IMG/VR virus record: IMGVR_UViG_3300031565_000314
Coordinates: 1 to 26,370 of that record
Direction: 5' to 3' (one strand)
DNA: 26,370 nucleotides
Source of the DNA: a virus
The notes beneath the pieces are model-generated. The model saw only the letters and a program-made list of their open reading frames with translations, was not told the origin of the DNA and did no database searches. The position numbers were made by a program, and so were the translations under genes. Below are positions 1 to 7,804 of this stretch, one piece after another (within the stretch, counting starts at the first letter, position 1; every line of letters begins with the position of its first letter).

Positions 1-391
1 CTAAGTAATCCTTAGTTGCTGTATCTAATCTACGAAACTTTGACTTAGCTTTATTAAAATCTGTTTTAATTAAATCAGCTATTGTAAAATAAGCTTTCGC
101 ATCACTGCCTTGTAATTTAATAAAATCTTTATCTGGATTACGAGCTTCTTTTTCTTTATCTACTTCTTTTTGTAATTTAGTTGCAACCTGTCTGAATACA
201 TTAGATGCTGAGCCTGCATTAAAATTATCTTTAGCTTTTTTAATGGCTTCTTTATCCTGGAGTCTTTTCTTCTCTTGTTTATCTAAGTGCTTTAACATAG
301 CATCATATTTACCACCCTTATCATTCTTACCTTCATTTATAATCTCATCAGATTTATCAGTAAATTGTTCGAATGTTTTTACATATTTCAT
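1..391 (-). CDS. Probable internal head protein with capsid-targeting-like N-terminus (3' end cut by window edge)
   Basis: The frame opens at an ATG at 389-391 and stays open to base 1, giving 130 visible residues, so the C-terminus is outside the window. The N-terminus reads MKYVKTFEQF and is followed by IINE/G at residues 17-21. This matches the start of three other proteins here (5717-7251) and resembles the T4 internal-protein targeting peptide (MKTYQEFIAE), which the gp21 prohead protease removes after (I/L)xE. After residue 20 the chain is highly charged, lysine-rich and predicted helical, as expected of a DNA-associated internal head protein. There is no signal peptide or membrane segment. 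It follows the uvsW-like gene after a 55-base gap. By inference it is packed into the prohead and trimmed at about residue 20. The mature function is unknown. Confidence 0.75.
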   Translation of the reverse strand, partial: MKYVKTFEQFTDKSDEIINEGKNDKGGKYDAMLKHLDKQEKKRLQDKEAIKKAKDNFNAGSASNVFRQVATKLQKEVDKEKEARNPDKDFIKLQGSDAKAYFTIADLIKTDFNKAKSKFRRLDTATKDYL

Positions 392-432
392 ATGAAATGA
401 CTTATTTTTTATGCCCAACATACGGGACTTTT

Positions 433-458
433 ATTATATATCTGAATTAAGCAGCAAA
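433..458 (-). promoter_or_regulatory. Possible promoter before the left-edge gene
   Basis: Read on the minus strand, a perfect TATAAT lies at 438-433, about 42 bases upstream of the ATG at 391. A TTTG, like the Bacteroidota -33 box, lies at 458-455 with a 16-base spacer and overlaps the end of the uvsW-like gene. The downstream half does not match the TAnnTTTG consensus, and such strings are common in AT-rich DNA, so this is only a candidate. Confidence 0.22.
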
Positions 459-1970
459 CTTTAGCTTCTTAACTATATAAGGGAATTGTTGGTCAGCATA
501 TATAACCTGGCGTTCAATACCATGCTTATATAGTTTGTTTTTCCAGTTACCCCAAGTAAAATCATCGACAAAATCAACTATAACTAATTTGTCTTTTTTA
601 CTATGAAGTCTTAATCCACGACCTATACTCTGTCTGATAACAATTTCAGATTTAAATGATTCTGTAAAAAATATATTATGTATATTCTTAATACTAATAC
701 CAGTACTGAACGTACCAAAACTAGCAACAAGAATAACATTATCATGTTGCTCCATTTTCTTTTTATAAGCTTCACGTAAATCATCATTAATACTACCATC
801 AACATAGTATATTAATTTATCTGGACATTTACGTCTTAGGGCTTTATAAATTTCTTCACCATGGTCAAGTCTGTGGAATAAAACTAATGCATTTTTAGTA
901 GATTTACCAATAATATTAGTAATCATATTTAACCTATCAGTATTTCCTATAACATAATTTTGTTCTAAGTTAAAAACTTTTTTACGTTCATTAGGGTCTG
1001 GGTTTCTAGAAAGTGTATGAAATGCTTCTTTCACTTCATCAGGTGCATAGTCAAGTTCAATTACTTTAACTTCACATTTAGCTACGAATCCTTTCTTTTG
1101 CAAGAAGTTTGCATTAACTTCATTTACTAAAGGTCCTGTATAACACATTAATGTTAATCTATCTAGGGTACCTGGCTTTGGAAATGTACCAGTTAAACCA
1201 TATCTATAATCGACATTCACGCATTTCTCTAAAATAGTTTTTATTGATACTGCTTTTACTTTATGCATCTCATCAACAATAACTGCATCAAAATCATTAA
1301 AGTAATCTTCTTTCTTTTTAACTAGTGATTGATATGTACCGATTACAATGTTACTATCCTTCTTTGGTTTTTGCCCAGAATAGATAGGTTCTATTTTAAG
1401 TTTAACTTGATTTTTATTATTAAATGCATAGAAATCTTCTTCAGCTTGATTTACTAAACTTACGTTAGGCACAATAAATAAAATTCTCTTTGCTAAACCA
1501 TGTTGTAACATGTAAGCTACTGTTAAGAAACTAATTAATGTTTTACCTGCAGATGTTGCTAATTCGGCACTGCACTTTCTAAATTTTAAAATTCTGAATG
1601 CAGATTCAATTTGATATTCACGTACTCCTGTGAAGCCATCCATTTTAAATCCTTCGAAAAAATCATTAGCCCATTTTGTAAAATCTTCTAATTGAATATC
1701 ATTATCAAATATATTACTTAAATCTTTAAAATAAATTGGATGATTAAATTTCTTAGCCATTTCTACTAATTCACGCCATAATCCTATTGGAATATAGCGG
1801 TCATTATAAAGATAGCAATAATATCCATCCCAGTACCCATTCTTAACTCTAGGATTAAACTTTGCATTTTTTACTTGCTTAGTTAAAGTAATCCTAATTT
1901 GTTCTAACTCAATTTCACTTGCTTCTGTTAAAACTAAAAATCTACTATCTTCACTTATTTCAAATACCAT
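447..1970 (-). CDS. uvsW: UvsW-like SF2 helicase (recombination and fork remodelling)
   Basis: This 507-residue protein is a superfamily 2 helicase of the T4 UvsW type. In T4, UvsW unwinds branched DNA, regresses stalled forks and removes R-loops, which moves replication from origins to recombination. The N-terminal ~100 residues match the small UvsW DNA-binding domain. Helicase motifs follow in order: motif I ATSAGKT at 138-144, motif II DEMH at 233-236, motif III GLTGTF at 258-263, motif V ASFGTFSTGIS at 416-426, and motif VI QSIGRGLR at 447-454. All key residues are intact, and the length is close to T4 UvsW (about 500 aa). Its ATG overlaps the TAA of the UvsY-like gene (TAATG), which suggests coupled translation. 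The adjacency to uvsY also echoes the T4 map. The family is secure. Confidence 0.93.
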   Translation of the reverse strand: MVFEISEDSRFLVLTEASEIELEQIRITLTKQVKNAKFNPRVKNGYWDGYYCYLYNDRYIPIGLWRELVEMAKKFNHPIYFKDLSNIFDNDIQLEDFTKWANDFFEGFKMDGFTGVREYQIESAFRILKFRKCSAELATSAGKTLISFLTVAYMLQHGLAKRILFIVPNVSLVNQAEEDFYAFNNKNQVKLKIEPIYSGQKPKKDSNIVIGTYQSLVKKKEDYFNDFDAVIVDEMHKVKAVSIKTILEKCVNVDYRYGLTGTFPKPGTLDRLTLMCYTGPLVNEVNANFLQKKGFVAKCEVKVIELDYAPDEVKEAFHTLSRNPDPNERKKVFNLEQNYVIGNTDRLNMITNIIGKSTKNALVLFHRLDHGEEIYKALRRKCPDKLIYYVDGSINDDLREAYKKKMEQHDNVILVASFGTFSTGISIKNIHNIFFTESFKSEIVIRQSIGRGLRLHSKKDKLVIVDFVDDFTWGNWKNKLYKHGIERQVIYADQQFPYIVKKLKFAA

Positions 1971-2425
1971 TAGATGGTTGCAATATTAATTCTATTTTTA
2001 ATAGCCCAAGCCATTTGATCGAGTGTTCTTACGCATTCACTATAATAATCAATTTGAATTTCTATAAAATTAATTTGTTTTTTAATATAATGTAAGTCGG
2101 CAATTACTGCAGCATCTTTATGCTTATCACTCATTTTATAATCATGATTATAATAATCAAGTAGTTTAGTCTTGTAACTTCTCTCATAGCTACTTTTAAT
2201 CTTTCTTAAACGTATATTGAGTTTTGCTAACTGGTCTATAATCATTTGACGATATGATAGCATTGTTACCTGAGAGTCAGATAGATTCTCAACGTTATTA
2301 AGTGTCTTAACAAGGGTAACAATTCTATCACCCCAGTTCGTACGCTGTTCAGCGAGTTGTTTTTCAATTGCTTCTAACTTTTCGTCATTAGTTAATTCAG
2401 CATTTTGTTGTACGTTATCTTCCAT
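1970..2425 (-). CDS. uvsY: UvsY-like recombination mediator
   Basis: This 151-residue, mostly helical protein is probably the recombination mediator that helps load a UvsX/RecA-type recombinase onto gp32-coated single strands. Its C-terminal half resembles T4 UvsY (137 aa). It has KTKLLDYY at 85-92 (T4 has a similar KARLDYYSG) and ends with LDQMAWAIKNRI at 135-146, comparable to the LDAIKSRGFAIKHI stretch of T4. The first ~35 residues are acidic and look like an extra N-terminal extension. The gene sits directly before the uvsW-like gene, with which it shares a TAATG overlap, and two bases after the 69-aa gene. The similarity is weak but runs in register, and the neighbours support it. A profile search would settle it. 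Confidence 0.68.
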   Translation of the reverse strand: MEDNVQQNAELTNDEKLEAIEKQLAEQRTNWGDRIVTLVKTLNNVENLSDSQVTMLSYRQMIIDQLAKLNIRLRKIKSSYERSYKTKLLDYYNHDYKMSDKHKDAAVIADLHYIKKQINFIEIQIDYYSECVRTLDQMAWAIKNRINIATI

Positions 2426-2427
2426 TT

Positions 2428-2637
2428 TTAAAACAGTTTAGTGTTATTACTATTTCTCTTTTCAGGTATATAAATCTTTACCCTATTATTAGAATATACG
2501 GGAGAAAAATCGGAAAGTTTCATACCGGCGTATGAATATTTAGATGCATCGAGTTCATCAAGTAAAATTTTAAGTTTTTTACTATCAGTAACTGCATCAT
2601 CTAGAAATTGGTTATATTCTTGTTCAAATTCGTTCAT
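2428..2637 (-). CDS. Small hypothetical protein between primase and UvsY-like genes
   Basis: This 69-residue protein is not recognised. It has an acidic helical first half (residues 1-35) and a basic C-terminal end rich in Asn, Lys and Arg, with no cysteines or membrane segment. Its ATG overlaps the primase TAA in a TAATG, and it ends two bases before the next start, so it fits a translated chain in the operon. T4 also carries very small open frames near uvsW and uvsY, but I see no specific match to them. It is called as a gene because of the exact junctions on both sides and the lack of any other explanation for the gap. Confidence 0.65.
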   Translation of the reverse strand: MNEFEQEYNQFLDDAVTDSKKLKILLDELDASKYSYAGMKLSDFSPVYSNNRVKIYIPEKRNSNNTKLF

Positions 2638-3755
2638 TATATATAATATAAATCTATTATCTTATTAGAGAAGTATTTGTTTATATATTTGTAGGAATCT
2701 ATCTTGTTTTTATAACATAATTTAATGATATCGTTTAAATCTTTAATTGTATCTTCTTTAGTTACATATCGCATTAAATCATAGTCAGAAATAAATTTCT
2801 TCCATAAAAAGACATCATGACCTTTTTTTAATTGGTCACCTGCAGCATCTTTCCCACTTCTGTCATTATCATAGAAATATCTAACAGATGGTATATCATC
2901 AAACATCGACATATCTCTATTAACAGTAGCCTGCCCTATAGAGTTTTTCATAAACTTTGAATCTATAGGTCCTTCAAAAGAAGTTACGGTTTGTGTAAAA
3001 TCAACGCTAAGAATACCGAATATAGTAGAAAGCTTATTTAATTTTTCTATTTCTATTTCATTCTCACATTTATCTAATGTTGTTAATCCTGCTTGTTCAC
3101 GTAATCTTTCAATATGGAACGTAAAGTACTTACTACTTGTATCTTTTGATATTCTTCTAACTTGATACCCAATCACTGACTTTCCATCAGGTGTTAAATT
3201 TAATACAAATAATCTACCCTGCCTCCATGAGAACTCTTTACTCTTATTAGTAAGTAAACGCTCTTTTAATATTTTATAACCTTGACTTTTTTCATCAATA
3301 GGTCTTGTACCTGTTATCCTATAAAAGACATCAAGTGGAATGCTTAATTCCTTTAATTTTTCGAATAATTCAAACTCAATGTTTCTTGCTTTAATACTTA
3401 TAACTTGATTAGTTTTAATGTAATCCATTATAGCTAATCTCTCGTCAGTATTAATATTAACTGCATTGTGTTCTTTTAATAGCATATGTAATGGTCTGTG
3501 TATGTTACAGCCATAATTATAACAGTGATACATTAAAGTATTCCAAAATAAGTTACCCCTTTTCTTCTTATTATCTTTTTCACTATCCCCACAATAAGGG
3601 CATGCAAAAGTCAAACGACCATGCATGTCCTTGATACTGGTTTTAGGTCCTGAACCAAAAGAAGTGTCCAGAATATTCTGGACACAACTCTTAATTTTTT
3701 CCCTAAAATCTTTATCTAATAGAGGGTTAATTGGGTTTGTCTTAGACATTAACAT
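2637..3755 (-). CDS. DnaG/gp61-like DNA primase
   Basis: This 372-residue protein is a primase with the two parts expected of the T4 gp61 and DnaG family. The N-terminal zinc-binding region has CPYCGDS at 52-58 and CYNYGC at 78-83. The central part holds a TOPRIM catalytic domain with the glutamate motif FEGPID at 260-265 and the acidic motif DNDRSG at 296-301. It would make RNA primers on lagging strands together with a replicative helicase, which is not in this window. The second zinc half is unusual: the Cys spacing is C-x4-C rather than C-x2-C. Two starts are possible (3755 and 3749, reading MLMSK). The first is used because it lies four bases after the ssb stop. Its TAA overlaps the ATG of the 69-aa gene. 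Confidence 0.87.
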   Translation of the reverse strand: MLMSKTNPINPLLDKDFREKIKSCVQNILDTSFGSGPKTSIKDMHGRLTFACPYCGDSEKDNKKKRGNLFWNTLMYHCYNYGCNIHRPLHMLLKEHNAVNINTDERLAIMDYIKTNQVISIKARNIEFELFEKLKELSIPLDVFYRITGTRPIDEKSQGYKILKERLLTNKSKEFSWRQGRLFVLNLTPDGKSVIGYQVRRISKDTSSKYFTFHIERLREQAGLTTLDKCENEIEIEKLNKLSTIFGILSVDFTQTVTSFEGPIDSKFMKNSIGQATVNRDMSMFDDIPSVRYFYDNDRSGKDAAGDQLKKGHDVFLWKKFISDYDLMRYVTKEDTIKDLNDIIKLCYKNKIDSYKYINKYFSNKIIDLYYI

Positions 3756-3759
3756 CTAA

Positions 3760-4692
3760 TTAGATACCTAAGTTATCTAAAAATTCGTCTAAGTTCTCGT
3801 CACCTGCATCGTTAGATTTAGCTTCTGACTCATCTTGAGATTCATCTTCAACTATAACTTTCTTAGCTACAGGTTTAGAAACTGATGGCTTAGAAGAAGG
3901 TGTCTTAGTGATTGCAGATACTGCGTCACCCGGTGAACGATATTGATTTAATATTGACTGAAGTTTAGTTTGGTCTTCAGATGACATTGGTTTGTATTCG
4001 AATTGATCTAATGATGGTGCACTGTCCATGAATTTTTTAAGTGATTCACGTCCTGCTTCATTAGCTTCAACTTCTACTCCATTTATTTCAATTGCTGTTC
4101 CAGCATCTTCAAATGATGTATCATCATAATTATTGAAATTACCTTGTCTTGTAATATACAAGTCCATGTTACGACCGTTGAAGAAGTTAAATATATCAAC
4201 TTTCTTACCAGTCTTAGGATTTAAGTATCTATCAAGTTTAGCTTTAAGCTTAACTCCATATTTTAATACCATAATTTTACCATTGTTAGCTGGTTTAACA
4301 GCGTCATCAATGATATAAACTAAAGAATAGAATACATCACGCTTTTGTAATTTCTCAGCGTTCTTTCTATCTAAAGCACTTTCACTCTTTGAAAGTTTTC
4401 TCCACAATTGTGCACATTCACAACTATTCCAATCTCCTACTGATTGAGGACTATCAAAGGTATAACCCTTGTCTGTCTCATCCTTAAGGAAATAAGTTAC
4501 TTTGTGAATGATTGATTTTGTTGGATTTGATGGATTGTAAAGAAATCTTACTTTCGCTTGATAAATTCCATCTGAAGCATCTTTTGCTTTGGGTGCGAAG
4601 ATAACTGAATCGTTTTTCTTCTCTCTGTTGTGTGTTTCAACTTCGATAGCCTTTGTACCGAAAATGTCAAAACCGTTGTTTTCTGTTGCCAT
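3760..4692 (-). CDS. gp32-like single-stranded DNA-binding protein
   Basis: This 310-residue protein matches the architecture of T4 gp32 (301 aa), which coats single strands during replication, recombination and repair. The core contains KRDVFYSLVYIIDDAVKP at 117-134 followed by NNGKIMVLKYGVKL at 136-149, the same order as the T4 segment that ends in an EGKVFKYRFGKKI-like strand. After a Ser/Pro/Lys-rich linker (about 263-282), the protein ends in an acidic tail (283-310, closing DENLDEFLDNLGI). In gp32 this tail recruits partner proteins. The zinc site of T4 gp32 appears lost: only Cys91 and Cys93 are present. An in-frame TAA 15 bases upstream fixes the start region. The gene follows the only long non-coding leader in the window. 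Confidence 0.87.
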   Translation of the reverse strand: MATENNGFDIFGTKAIEVETHNREKKNDSVIFAPKAKDASDGIYQAKVRFLYNPSNPTKSIIHKVTYFLKDETDKGYTFDSPQSVGDWNSCECAQLWRKLSKSESALDRKNAEKLQKRDVFYSLVYIIDDAVKPANNGKIMVLKYGVKLKAKLDRYLNPKTGKKVDIFNFFNGRNMDLYITRQGNFNNYDDTSFEDAGTAIEINGVEVEANEAGRESLKKFMDSAPSLDQFEYKPMSSEDQTKLQSILNQYRSPGDAVSAITKTPSSKPSVSKPVAKKVIVEDESQDESEAKSNDAGDENLDEFLDNLGI

Positions 4693-4970
4693 AAACTTTT
4701 GCCTTTTTTAATTGTTTAACTTGTTTTTAATTGCCTAATACTAGAGTCATTAAAGTGTAATCTTTAAATAGTTCTGGCCAGTAACGTGTTTAATAATATG
4801 CCTTTTAAATGCCTGTTTCTTAGTTGAGATATATATTGTCGTCTCAGGATTAGTTTCAAAGATTTTTTAGAAAAAAACTTAGGGAAATCTTTGATAATTC
4901 TGAAACAAAGCCTGTGGGGTTGGCTTATAATGATTAAGAGGTCTTAAGCCAATAAAGGGGCCTTTGACCT
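4693..4970 (-). promoter_or_regulatory. Structured leader of the gp32-like gene
   Basis: This is the only stretch near 300 bases without a gene. I see no open frame, tRNA or Shine-Dalgarno core in it. It is rich in inverted repeats: TTGGCTTA (4920-4927) with TAAGCCAA (4945-4952); AAAGATTT (4858-4865) with AAATCTTT (4885-4892), flanked by GTTTCA (4853-4858) and TGAAAC (4901-4906); a CTGGCCAG dyad (4774-4781); and TTAAAG (4750-4755) with CTTTAA (4762-4767) around a 6-base loop. The last ~55 bases before the ATG are A-rich and free of obvious structure. T4 gene 32 mRNA has a folded leader plus an unstructured stretch bound by gp32 for autorepression, and this arrangement looks similar. Promoters and a terminator for the upstream gene may also lie here but none matched a consensus. 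Confidence 0.5.
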
Positions 4971-5711
4971 TTAACTCTCTGGGTAACTTTCCCAAAGACA
5001 TCTGGCAATAAAATACGAATCTACTAGATCGTCGATAGGTTTTGGTATTTTTACCTTCTTAACATTGCGACTTAGTTCTAAGTTTAAACAATGTTTATGG
5101 AAATCTCCGCAAAGCATTTCGTCATGGTAATCTAATCGAAAATTACCTTTCTTATCTTTCTCTATTCGCTCTTTATATTTTTCCTTGATAAATCTATATT
5201 CTCCAATAAAGACGTCGAATAAATCAGCCTTATCGTAAGAGCCATATCCAGCTAGTTTTTTTATGGCTTTAGGCGAGTACACATCAAGGGTAAATTTTTT
5301 GAAAATATCTTTTTCAAGTATTAAAGTCTTGAGTGCGGTCGTTGCGCCTATAATATCTATAAGATTATTTGACTGTGAGCCAAATGAGTAGCCTTCAAAC
5401 CCAATATGTATTGTTGATTGTTTAAGTTCGCTGTTTGTTAAATTTGAAGTAATGAAATCTAATATAGCTAGAGCCTGTTCTCTATAATGAGATATTTTAG
5501 CAAATTCATTTCTACTATAAGTAGCTTCTACTAATTGGTCATTTTGAAAAACTAAGTCTACGTCCTTAAGGCACTGTACGTCTTCTTGACGTTTTAGGTC
5601 TTTCTTTTCTAATTTCTTTGGATGTGAAATAAATTTGTACTTCTTATCTTTAAGTATACAAATAGCCGGACTCTTTAAGGAATAGTCAATTCCAATATAA
5701 ATGTGATTCAT
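4971..5711 (-). CDS. RuvC-like (RNase H-fold) Holliday junction nuclease
   Basis: This 246-residue protein has the acidic residue pattern of RuvC-type resolvases. A first-strand aspartate lies in YIGIDYSLKSPA (Asp9), a glutamate in IGFEGYSFG (Glu106), and closely spaced aspartates in KPIDDLVDSYFIA (Asp227, Asp228, Asp231) on the last helix. A basic stretch around SPKAIKKLAGYGSYDK (146-161) matches the helix that RuvC enzymes use for junction contacts. It would cut four-way junctions formed during recombination-dependent replication so that DNA can be packaged. T4 uses the unrelated gp49 (endonuclease VII) for this job. It starts six bases after the glycine-zipper head protein gene and precedes the gp32 leader. 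Another RNase H-fold nuclease role is possible. Confidence 0.75.
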   Translation of the reverse strand: MNHIYIGIDYSLKSPAICILKDKKYKFISHPKKLEKKDLKRQEDVQCLKDVDLVFQNDQLVEATYSRNEFAKISHYREQALAILDFITSNLTNSELKQSTIHIGFEGYSFGSQSNNLIDIIGATTALKTLILEKDIFKKFTLDVYSPKAIKKLAGYGSYDKADLFDVFIGEYRFIKEKYKERIEKDKKGNFRLDYHDEMLCGDFHKHCLNLELSRNVKKVKIPKPIDDLVDSYFIARCLWESYPES

Positions 5712-5716
5712 TATAA

Positions 5717-6100
5717 TTAAATTAAGCGACCACCAAGTGCACTACCTAAAGCTGCACCTACTAATCTACTAGTTAACATCTCATATACGATACCTTTTTC
5801 GATACCTAAAACTCTTGCAATAATTTTACCTATTGTCTTACCTAATGCGAATCCTGTAAGGCCGCCTAATATAGAACCTATAAAACCTTCTTTAACAAGG
5901 TCTTCTTGTAAATTATTAATATCTTTATTATTGTCTAAATATTCTTTAACAAAAGCATCTATTGCTTCATCTATTTTAGCTTCTTCGTCTTCTGTAAGTT
6001 CATGTTTATAACTTTCATTTAAAGCTTCAAGTAATTGCTGGTCAGATAAACTATTTGTCTTCTCATTAATAAAATCTATAAATGTCTTAGTATCTTTCAT
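5717..6100 (-). CDS. Probable internal head protein with glycine zipper
   Basis: This 127-residue protein has two parts. The N-terminus MKDTKTFIDFINE/K carries the targeting-like K-T-F-x-x-F motif and an immediate INE site for a gp21-type protease. It is followed by an acidic helical stretch to about residue 70. The C-terminal third is hydrophobic and glycine-rich. Gly75, 79, 83, 87 and 91 are spaced exactly four apart, and Gly115, 119 and 123 repeat the pattern. Such GxxxG zippers pack membrane helices closely and occur in membrane-inserting and channel-forming peptides. By inference it is carried inside the head and may act on a membrane when DNA is delivered. A structural core role or a holin-like role are alternatives, though the targeting peptide argues against a holin. 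It ends six bases before the RuvC-like gene. Confidence 0.72.
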   Translation of the reverse strand: MKDTKTFIDFINEKTNSLSDQQLLEALNESYKHELTEDEEAKIDEAIDAFVKEYLDNNKDINNLQEDLVKEGFIGSILGGLTGFALGKTIGKIIARVLGIEKGIVYEMLTSRLVGAALGSALGGRLI

Positions 6101-6103
6101 TAG

Positions 6104-6742
6104 TTAATAATTATTTGCATCTGGATTACCTTCCATTTCTTTAGATAAAGCTTTAGCAGCAATACTTGCAATAGCTGGATTTTCTTCCATCATTGATTCC
6201 ATCTTTTCTGTATACACTTCTCTAATAGACTTCATCATTGAATTTATATATTCATGAGTTGTATCATATACAACCTGCTCATCATATGCTTTTTCATTCG
6301 TCTTCTTCATCGCAGCTTTTGCGGCAACTAAAGAAAATTCAACGTTTTCTTTCATTACTCTAGTACACATTTCTGCCATTGTTGTAAAACATTCGGTCAT
6401 GAATCCTTCTAATGTATGTGCAGGGTCTTCATCATTTTCATTATTACAAGCTTCTGCATACATTTGTTTGTACATTTCATATATACGTTCATTTAAAGAT
6501 ATCTTTTCAGGTTCAACATCCTTCTTATCATCTGAAGTATCTTCATTTGTTCCGTATACTTCTTTAGCATTATTTATAGTATCTTCAGAAAAGCCTTCAG
6601 ATTCCAATGCAGTAATAAACTTATCTAAGTCTTCCCATATATTATCTTCACCATACTGTTCAATAAACGCAATATATTTACGTTCGTCATCAGTAACTAT
6701 AGACTCATTTATAAATTGATTAAATGTCTTAAAATATTCCAT
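6104..6742 (-). CDS. Probable prohead core/internal protein, paralogue A
   Basis: This 212-residue protein is acidic and largely helical. It begins MEYFKTFNQFINE/S, the best match in the window to the T4 targeting peptide, with an INE cleavage-type site after residue 13. Residues about 20-82 form an acidic region absent from its neighbour. Residues 88-204 align with the next protein upstream (6742-7251), including ENDEDPAHTLE at 102-112 and a late helix with EYINSMMKSIREVYTEK at 164-180. Acidic helical proteins with such peptides are typical of scaffolding cores or co-packaged internal proteins. It overlaps its paralogue through TAATG and is three bases from the glycine-zipper gene. The exact role is not known from sequence. 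Confidence 0.75.
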   Translation of the reverse strand: MEYFKTFNQFINESIVTDDERKYIAFIEQYGEDNIWEDLDKFITALESEGFSEDTINNAKEVYGTNEDTSDDKKDVEPEKISLNERIYEMYKQMYAEACNNENDEDPAHTLEGFMTECFTTMAEMCTRVMKENVEFSLVAAKAAMKKTNEKAYDEQVVYDTTHEYINSMMKSIREVYTEKMESMMEENPAIASIAAKALSKEMEGNPDANNY

Positions 6743-7251
6743 TAGACTTTATTTCTTTTTTTATATATCTCAGTTTTTTCTTCTTTGATTTTTTTCATTA
6801 CCAAAGTAGCTGATGAATGGTTTGTCTTCTTAAGTTCATCTAACTTTTCACAGAATGATTCTTTCATTGAATCTATACATGCATCTAGGTATTCTTTTAA
6901 TTCATCTCTTTGAGAATTATAATCATTACCACTATCTTCACCTACGAACTGATTAGATACTGTTCTAAGAGCTGTAAAATAATCATCACTGTGCATTGCT
7001 TTAGCTGCTGCAGAACCCATAACCATTGCAGTTTCTTTTAAATATTCTTCAAGAGTATGTTCAGGGTCATTATCATTTTCATAATTAGCTGCATCTAATA
7101 TAGCTTCGTATAAAGATTCCCACAATTTCTTTTGTGTTTTCTCAGAAACTACTTTAGAGAAATTAACTCCTGGTTTTCTACTTACTGTTTCATTTTCTTC
7201 CAATGATTTATTGGCATTCATGAAATCTTCAAATGTTTTAATGTTTTTCAT
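6742..7251 (-). CDS. Probable prohead core/internal protein, paralogue B
   Basis: This 169-residue protein starts MKNIKTFEDFMNANKSLEE/N. It has the shared K-T-F-x-x-F motif and a candidate protease site (LEE) a little later, at residues 17-19. The body is paralogous to the next gene: ENDNDPEHTLE at 58-68 matches its ENDEDPAHTLE, and EYLDACIDSMKESFCEK at 120-136 matches the late helix. It lacks the ~60-residue acidic insert of the paralogue. The C-terminus is basic (KKIKEEKTEIYKKRNKV), which could contact DNA. It directly follows the tail tube-like gene, a place where T4 also carries portal and prohead core genes nearby. It is likely co-translated with its paralogue through a TAATG overlap. 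Confidence 0.75.
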   Translation of the reverse strand: MKNIKTFEDFMNANKSLEENETVSRKPGVNFSKVVSEKTQKKLWESLYEAILDAANYENDNDPEHTLEEYLKETAMVMGSAAAKAMHSDDYFTALRTVSNQFVGEDSGNDYNSQRDELKEYLDACIDSMKESFCEKLDELKKTNHSSATLVMKKIKEEKTEIYKKRNKV

Positions 7252-7252
7252 A

Positions 7253-7804
7253 TTAATCTAATTCTATTAGTACTTCTAATTCGTTATACGCTATTGATAA
7301 TTCAAATGTTGAAAATTCTGCAACGTTACTAGCAAATGACATTGATAAATCACCTATATTTTTAATTAAAGGTCTTTTTATCCTAGCTGTAACAATTATA
7401 TTACCTTCTGAATCCGTCATTCTAACATTTAAGTCTTCAATAAACTTCTGTCCATTACTAAATTTATAATAATAGTTTAAAGTATCTAGCATCATCCAAT
7501 AATTAATGAATCCATCAACTAGTTGAAATGTAACTGTAAATTCTTTTTGAAATAATTCCTGAGTTGGTAATGTATTACGCCAAGATATTTGTCTTCCTGA
7601 GTATTGAGCTTGTACAACTGGTTCAAATCCCATTCCAGGTAAATTAATACTTTGTATAGTATAATTTAAAAAATCTAATGGTTCTTCAATAACATTTCCT
7701 GGCATTCTGTTCAGATACGGTTTATACTTATCTGAAATTTCCTTAGGTATAAAATTCTTAGGAAAGTGAAATTCGAATAAATTATTCCTTGCGTCTAATA
7801 ACAT
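7253..7804 (-). CDS. Tail tube-like protein (gp19/gp54 type)
   Basis: This 183-residue protein is probably the myovirus tail tube subunit or a close baseplate relative such as gp54. It has the features of this fold. An early strand region ends in SINLPGMGFEPV (about 53-64), comparable to the ATALPAG turn of T4 gp19. Next come KEFTVTFQLVDGFINYWMM, a strand plus helix in which the tube family has its FDDWTVTV and nearby helix. The C-terminal IGDLSMSFASN...FSTFELSIAYN block closely parallels the VGELQLDWDSN...IQTFEVTLALD end of gp19. T4 gp19 is 163 aa. No sheath gene is in the window. The start is two bases after the TAA of the preceding 742-aa gene is read through in another frame, so the genes nearly touch. 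Tube versus baseplate cannot be separated by eye. Confidence 0.62.
   Translation of the reverse strand: MLLDARNNLFEFHFPKNFIPKEISDKYKPYLNRMPGNVIEEPLDFLNYTIQSINLPGMGFEPVVQAQYSGRQISWRNTLPTQELFQKEFTVTFQLVDGFINYWMMLDTLNYYYKFSNGQKFIEDLNVRMTDSEGNIIVTARIKRPLIKNIGDLSMSFASNVAEFSTFELSIAYNELEVLIELD

Follow-up and report, generated by a model that had tools for sequence, protein, structure and literature searches.

The window, the 26,370-base stretch of DNA analysed here, is a fragment of a T4-like virus in which the main genes are all on the minus strand. The gene order runs UvsW helicase, UvsY-like, primase, gp32, RuvC-like resolvase, then three genes designated B, C and D, the tail tube and more structural genes; a fourth gene of interest, A, follows UvsW and is truncated at the window edge (Table 1). 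The whole window is syntenic with LR756500.1, a 462 kb uncultured phage record that is its closest large relative (UvsW 52%, tube 50%, B 47%), and also with L003 (UvsW 66%). The presence of UvsW, gp32, primase and tail tube in the window, and of gp23 and a Peptidase S77 domain in the syntenic relative, places the fragment in the T4-like (gp23/gp21) lineage.

Table 1. Features of the window. A slash within a site marks the predicted cut.
Feature	Position	Strand	Remarks
Gene A, lysine-rich tagged protein MKYVKTFEQF..., cut by window edge	2..391	-	no known family
Tag of A, MKYVKTFEQFTDK	353..391	-	profile score 12.1
Candidate protease site of A, I18-N19-E20/G21	332..340	-	sequence; displaced as in T4 IPI
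T4-type replication genes UvsW, UvsY-like, primase, gp32, RuvC-like	447..5711	-	between A and the B-C-D cluster
Gene B, tagged MKDTKTFIDFINE..., C-terminal glycine-zipper-like hydrophobic domain	5717..6100	-	conserved in a large phage group
Glycine-rich hydrophobic domain of B (GFIGSILGGLTGFALGKTIGKIIA...)	5720..5887	-	AlphaFold all-helical, moderate to low confidence
Possible second protease site of B, V69-K70-E71/G72	5888..5896	-	
Tag of B, canonical site F10-I11-N12-E13/K14	6062..6100	-	
Gene C, tagged MEYFKTFNQFINE..., paralogue of D	6104..6742	-	
Tag of C, canonical site F10-I11-N12-E13/S14	6704..6742	-	score 26.1
Gene D, tagged MKNIKTFEDFMNA..., paralogue of C	6742..7251	-	fast-evolving (30% to L003 homologue)
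Candidate protease site of D, L17-E18-E19/N20	7195..7203	-	sequence only
Tag of D, MKNIKTFEDFMNA, no Glu at 13	7213..7251	-	score 19.7
Tail tube gene adjoining tagged cluster	7253..7804	-	PHROG 45 E=3e-11; LR756500 homologue 50%

Genes A to D share a common start. All four begin M-x3-KTF-x2-F in exact register, with KTF at residues 5-7 and phenylalanine at residue 10, reading MKYVKTFEQFTDKSDEIINE/G in A (from 391), MKDTKTFIDFINE/K in B (from 6100), MEYFKTFNQFINE/S in C (from 6742) and MKNIKTFEDFMNANKSLEE/N in D (from 7251). No other open reading frame in the window has an M...KTF..F start. An earlier note on this DNA had described this start in the four genes, and both the shared register and the gene boundaries hold, with A given as 2-391 after checking. 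The same note stated that only two of the four are related beyond the N-terminus; in agreement, blastp after removal of the first 14 residues related C to D (24%, E about 3e-11) and none of the remaining pairs. The note also gave an (I/L)xE sequence for each protein. The canonical site is present at the T4-equivalent E13 in B and C. In A and D a K or A occupies residue 13, and the closest (I/L)xE ends later, at E20 and E19, respectively. Gene A reaches at least 167 aa in the near-identical contig L002. Neither Pfam nor PHROGs gave a convincing match to A-D, gene C had no match among 50,697 phage records, and a scan revealed no relatives of C or D beyond L002 and L003. The AlphaFold model of D, at pLDDT 46, was uninformative.

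Given how frequent K, F, I, N and E are in this genome, the resemblance could in principle be a product of chance or low complexity in AT-rich DNA. A codon-degenerate M...KTF..FINE pattern matched 52 stretches across all IMG/VR contigs compared with 3 for a permuted pattern of the same composition, and the same pattern gave 4 matches in 257 Gb of cellular genomes, two of which lacked a tag-scoring open frame. Gene starts were also scored with a leave-one-genome-out profile against shuffled N-termini, using a score cut of 13. Three of the 20 window genes were tagged by this measure, compared with 0.0 in shuffles, and the tag of A fell just under the cut at 12.1. Seven related records (34-462 kb) contained 7-27 tagged genes each versus ~0.1 or fewer in shuffles, with 17 in LR756500, 14 of 52 in G009, 27 in G023, 19 in G024, 10 in G018 and 7 each in G031 and G014. 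The count per record rose to about 28 when the scored genome was included in profile training. Since the pattern counts are far above those of the permuted and cellular controls, and the shuffles agree, we rejected chance, to which we give a negligible probability. The earlier note had proposed a search for further tagged starts, and many were found, both in the closest large relative and elsewhere among tag-bearing phages. The tag has drifted to MKYIKEYEEFILE in LR756500. L026/G009 has a nearly unbroken series of 15 tagged genes, with starts of the form MK[HYN]IK[TS][FY]..F.

The G009 run allowed the extent of conservation to be followed in the DNA. Identity between the tagged genes rises from 42% upstream to 78% across the 13 codons of the tag and falls to 35% right after, and the conserved tag codons vary synonymously. 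The drop in identity after codon 13, together with the synonymous changes, points to selection at the protein level that ends at the predicted cut. A nucleotide-level feature of gene starts, serving translation or regulation and encoding KTFxxF incidentally, would be in line with the constant position of the tag at the start codon and with a preference for the Thr codon ACA (73% vs 42%). However, the conserved positions use TTT and TTC 7:7, ATT, ATA and ATC, and GAA and GAG; the Lys codons match background, F/Y and I/L/V are swapped at the protein level and the upstream DNA is unconserved. We rejected this codon-level reading on the synonymous variation and consider it extremely improbable. 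Common descent, in which the N-terminal stretch would be a domain inherited through gene duplication and not a mobile tag, was likewise rejected and is very unlikely. It could draw on the paralogy of C and D (same blastp E-value) and on duplicated cargo families of the DUF285 and leucine-rich repeat types, but when the tag is trimmed most of the 204 distinct tagged proteins have no detectable relation, and the DNA likeness ends at codon 13.

A protein-level tag of this kind has a counterpart in the capsid-targeting sequence (CTS) of the T4 internal proteins IPI, IPII and IPIII, reportedly described by Mullaney and Black in 1996. The CTS is likewise short and N-terminal, has aromatic residues three apart followed by (I/L)xE/A, and is common to otherwise unrelated proteins. 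When a tag profile of the related phages, with T4 excluded from training, was run on T4, ipII, ipIII, 61.1 and ipI were the top 4 of 1285 start sites. The scores of ipII, ipIII and 61.1, about 21.8, are far above the shuffled maxima (4.2-12.4), whereas ipI, at 10.1, lies within them and is not significant alone. This retrieval by a T4-free profile supports the T4-like capsid targeting that the earlier note had proposed. The consensus M-[K/E]-x-[I/L]-K-T-[F/Y]-x-x-F-[I/L/V]-x-E/[A/S/N/G], where the last slash marks the cut, equals T4 MKT[F/Y]xEFIxE/A plus three residues after the start, so that M-x3-KT[FY] is the usual difference from T4. Aligned on KT[FY], the conserved F/Y, F, I/L/V and E correspond to T4 residues 4, 7, 8 and 10, and the aromatics equivalent to residues 4 and 7 are F7 and F10 in all four window genes. 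In T4, incorporation needs no more than the first ten residues of IPIII, and suppressor substitutions showed targeting to depend most on residues 4 and 7, and processing on residues 8 and 10 (PMC9026906). The shared start of A-D is thus very probably a T4-type CTS, an explanation that in full includes the loading of cargo into the prohead, and packaging of A-D is predicted with the same high confidence. Giant-phage heads of the SPN3US and phiKZ type also receive cargo through propeptides cut by a related protease, but those are mostly >100 residues long (PMC5694885), whereas the tags here are 13-20 residues and T4-like. A literature search, with most subscription journals and preprints outside its coverage, found no paper on the tag outside T-even phages and their close relatives.

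The residues after the tag core are those expected of a cleavage site. In a set of 92 proteins selected solely on the tag core, 61 have [ILV]xE directly behind it, and in 47 of these the next residue is A, G, S or N; the background of [ILV]xE at residues 11/13 of untagged proteins is 3.9%. Cleavage at the tag is predicted with good confidence for B and C, while for A and D we consider it moderately probable. T4 IPI (MKTFKEFTSTTTPVSTITE/A) also has no Glu at residue 10, with E19 closing the first (I/L)xE of the protein; this fits a mature form of 76 residues out of 95 aa (PMC3012670). The displaced sites of A and D match the IPI arrangement; the case is weaker for D, because L17-E18-E19 is not kept in the L003 homologue. 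Beyond the tag, additional (I/L/V)xE sites show only weak enrichment overall (0.20 vs 0.11 per protein, p about 0.01), highest in G009 and G014.

The gp21-type protease named in the earlier note as the cutting enzyme was not seen in the 26 kb window, which holds no head genes either. A homologue of T4 gp21 (Peptidase S77, PF03420) is present in LR756500.1, where the S77 domain (E=2e-12) opens a 632-aa protein whose gene is flanked by those for gp23 and a portal-like protein of 560 aa. An S77 match (E<=0.01) was found in 14 of 15 tag-bearing records >=100 kb, 11 of them above the curated cut-off, although several of the records appear to be near duplicates, which leaves roughly ten lineages. 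A random 16-mer control for the base rate of the protease gave 0 contigs >=100 kb, and the two control contigs of this size, one with an S77 match, are too few to set a base rate behind 14 of 15. The T4-like phage Mel-JY01 has gp21 and no tags by profile, so the protease does not imply tags. In contrast to the 212 aa of T4 gp21, the protease domain in this group is N-terminal in a much longer open frame, which spans about 570-820 aa in most members and mostly about 600-700 aa. The LR756500.1 protein (226725-228623; L009:26725-28623) has a long repeat-rich C-terminal extension, as do most S77-matching relatives, and is perhaps a protease-scaffold fusion. Several related 'RYGVE'-repeat proteins, homing-type-nuclease-like, also lie among the head and replication genes of LR756500 (L009:23125-24924, L009:31551-33164, L004:10545-12488).

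Gene B differs from its neighbors in its distribution. Its relatives number 438 in viral contigs, and among the 50,697 phage records its only match is LR756500. Over 36 homologues the tag is strongly conserved (K5 97%, T/S6 100%, F7 100%, F/Y10 92%, I/L/V/M11 97%, E13 89%), and B homologues bridge the two tag forms, as most start MKTF..Y[IL]xE as in T4 and a minority M-x3-KTF. The AlphaFold model of B (pLDDT 64) gave no Foldseek match below E=2. E71 and G72 at the possible second cut, which precedes the conserved glycine-rich domain, are invariant in B homologues, but residue 69 is usually Thr; we rejected a conserved canonical (I/L)xE there and retain the site as a suggestion only. Being widespread and conserved, B resembles a core virion component more than a variable effector, and we consider a core virion or ejection protein the more likely role. 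A packaged core or ejection protein acting at the membrane is the reading of B that we favor most, though only tentatively and at well under even confidence. The fast-evolving C and D appear to fit the variable internal-protein type better than B.

The conservation of B bears on whether the tag directs proteins to the prohead core for assembly, as scaffold or core components or in control of head size, and not as injected effectors. The T4 core also contains gp22, gp67 and gp68 (PMC5694885), B is conserved at 438 viral loci and lies between tail and replication genes, and in G014 a tagged gene (93037-93408) directly precedes the protease (match at 93524). The tagged proteins as a whole are nevertheless unlike scaffolds, as the trimmed set forms 129 unrelated families, most of them present in only one or two phages, and includes enzyme domains (ART, 2H/Acb1-like, CTP-transferase, GNAT, RimK and R2K). 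An assembly role as the general explanation is accordingly unlikely, and delivery of the tagged proteins as cargo remains the preferred reading.

Most of the tagged families match nothing. The matches that were found are to DUF285 repeats, leucine-rich repeats, cytidylyltransferase/NMNAT-like (two), GNAT, RimK-like, R2K ATP-grasp and DUF2201 metallopeptidase, along with a 2'-5' RNA ligase-like/2H protein with a sub-threshold Acb1 match and an ART-PolyVal (ADP-ribosyltransferase-like) match below the cut-off. We treat them as hints of function. DUF285 (Mycoplasma-type repeat) proteins are an unusual cargo and are multi-copy in some phages (L038, L030, L035, L037, L063, L102, L104). Five phages (L004:17941-19206, L003:11236-12510, L123:7659-8954, L084:2865-4178, L091:15249-16988) share a tagged, ligase-like family marked by the motifs KTDG and EGIVF, each member having an x-E-GG step, mostly of (I/L)xE type, just before the conserved domain. 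In the L091 member an intein-like insertion splits the K-TDG motif. A PDB sequence search with this family returned nothing. The product of the adjoining gene (L003:12520-14460 and L004:15948-17909) is large and lacks the tag; it combines a second KxDG-like part at the N-terminus with a cytidylyltransferase/NMNAT-like domain (PF01467) at the C-terminus.

By analogy with T4, binding of the two aromatic tag residues to the prohead core would bring every tagged protein into the prohead during assembly, and the gp21-type protease would then cut after (I/L/V)xE to free the body. The freed cargo would remain inside the head alongside the DNA and would most likely enter the host with it, there to act against early defences or for takeover. 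Injection of the tagged cargo is, in our estimate, somewhat favored. The mechanism is known from T4; its size and its spread in uncultured huge phages appear to be new, with 7-28 tagged proteins per record, many of them enzymes, compared with three or four in T4. Our literature search found no virion proteomics for this phage group. We also entertain, at slightly under even confidence, the broader proposal that one modular 13-residue tag serves as a genome-wide cargo system in huge T4-like phages, under which almost any gene could be placed. Before any phage gene expression, each particle would then deliver its own set of one to three dozen anti-defence and takeover proteins, among them enzymes acting on ADP-ribose, cyclic nucleotides, NAD precursors and RNA.

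The functions of the three internal proteins of T4 took decades to find. A block of Type IV restriction enzymes has now been reported for all three (PMC12373910). If the tag marks cargo in huge phages, likely delivered proteins could be read from sequence alone, and each would gain a predicted boundary consisting of tag, cut site and mature body. The tagged proteins would then form a short list of candidates for new anti-defence factors, nearly all of them without an assigned function.

A further observation concerns the major capsid protein. T4 gp61.1 (NC_000866 18966-19130) begins with the capsid tag and continues as a near copy of the N-terminal arm of mature gp23 (NPENISIGTTSGAVVNKGP vs NATNIAAGQTSGAVTQIGP). 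Small proteins of the huge phages copy the quite different arm of their own major capsid protein (GMG..LPG.P...GSGD), at LR756500.1 265261-265644, G014 73737-74339 and L003:16239-17180. These copies bear a tag-like KFIKTFNEF or MKYVKTFESF, located at the C-terminal end in LR756500, and may represent a lineage-matched mimic of the capsid arm.
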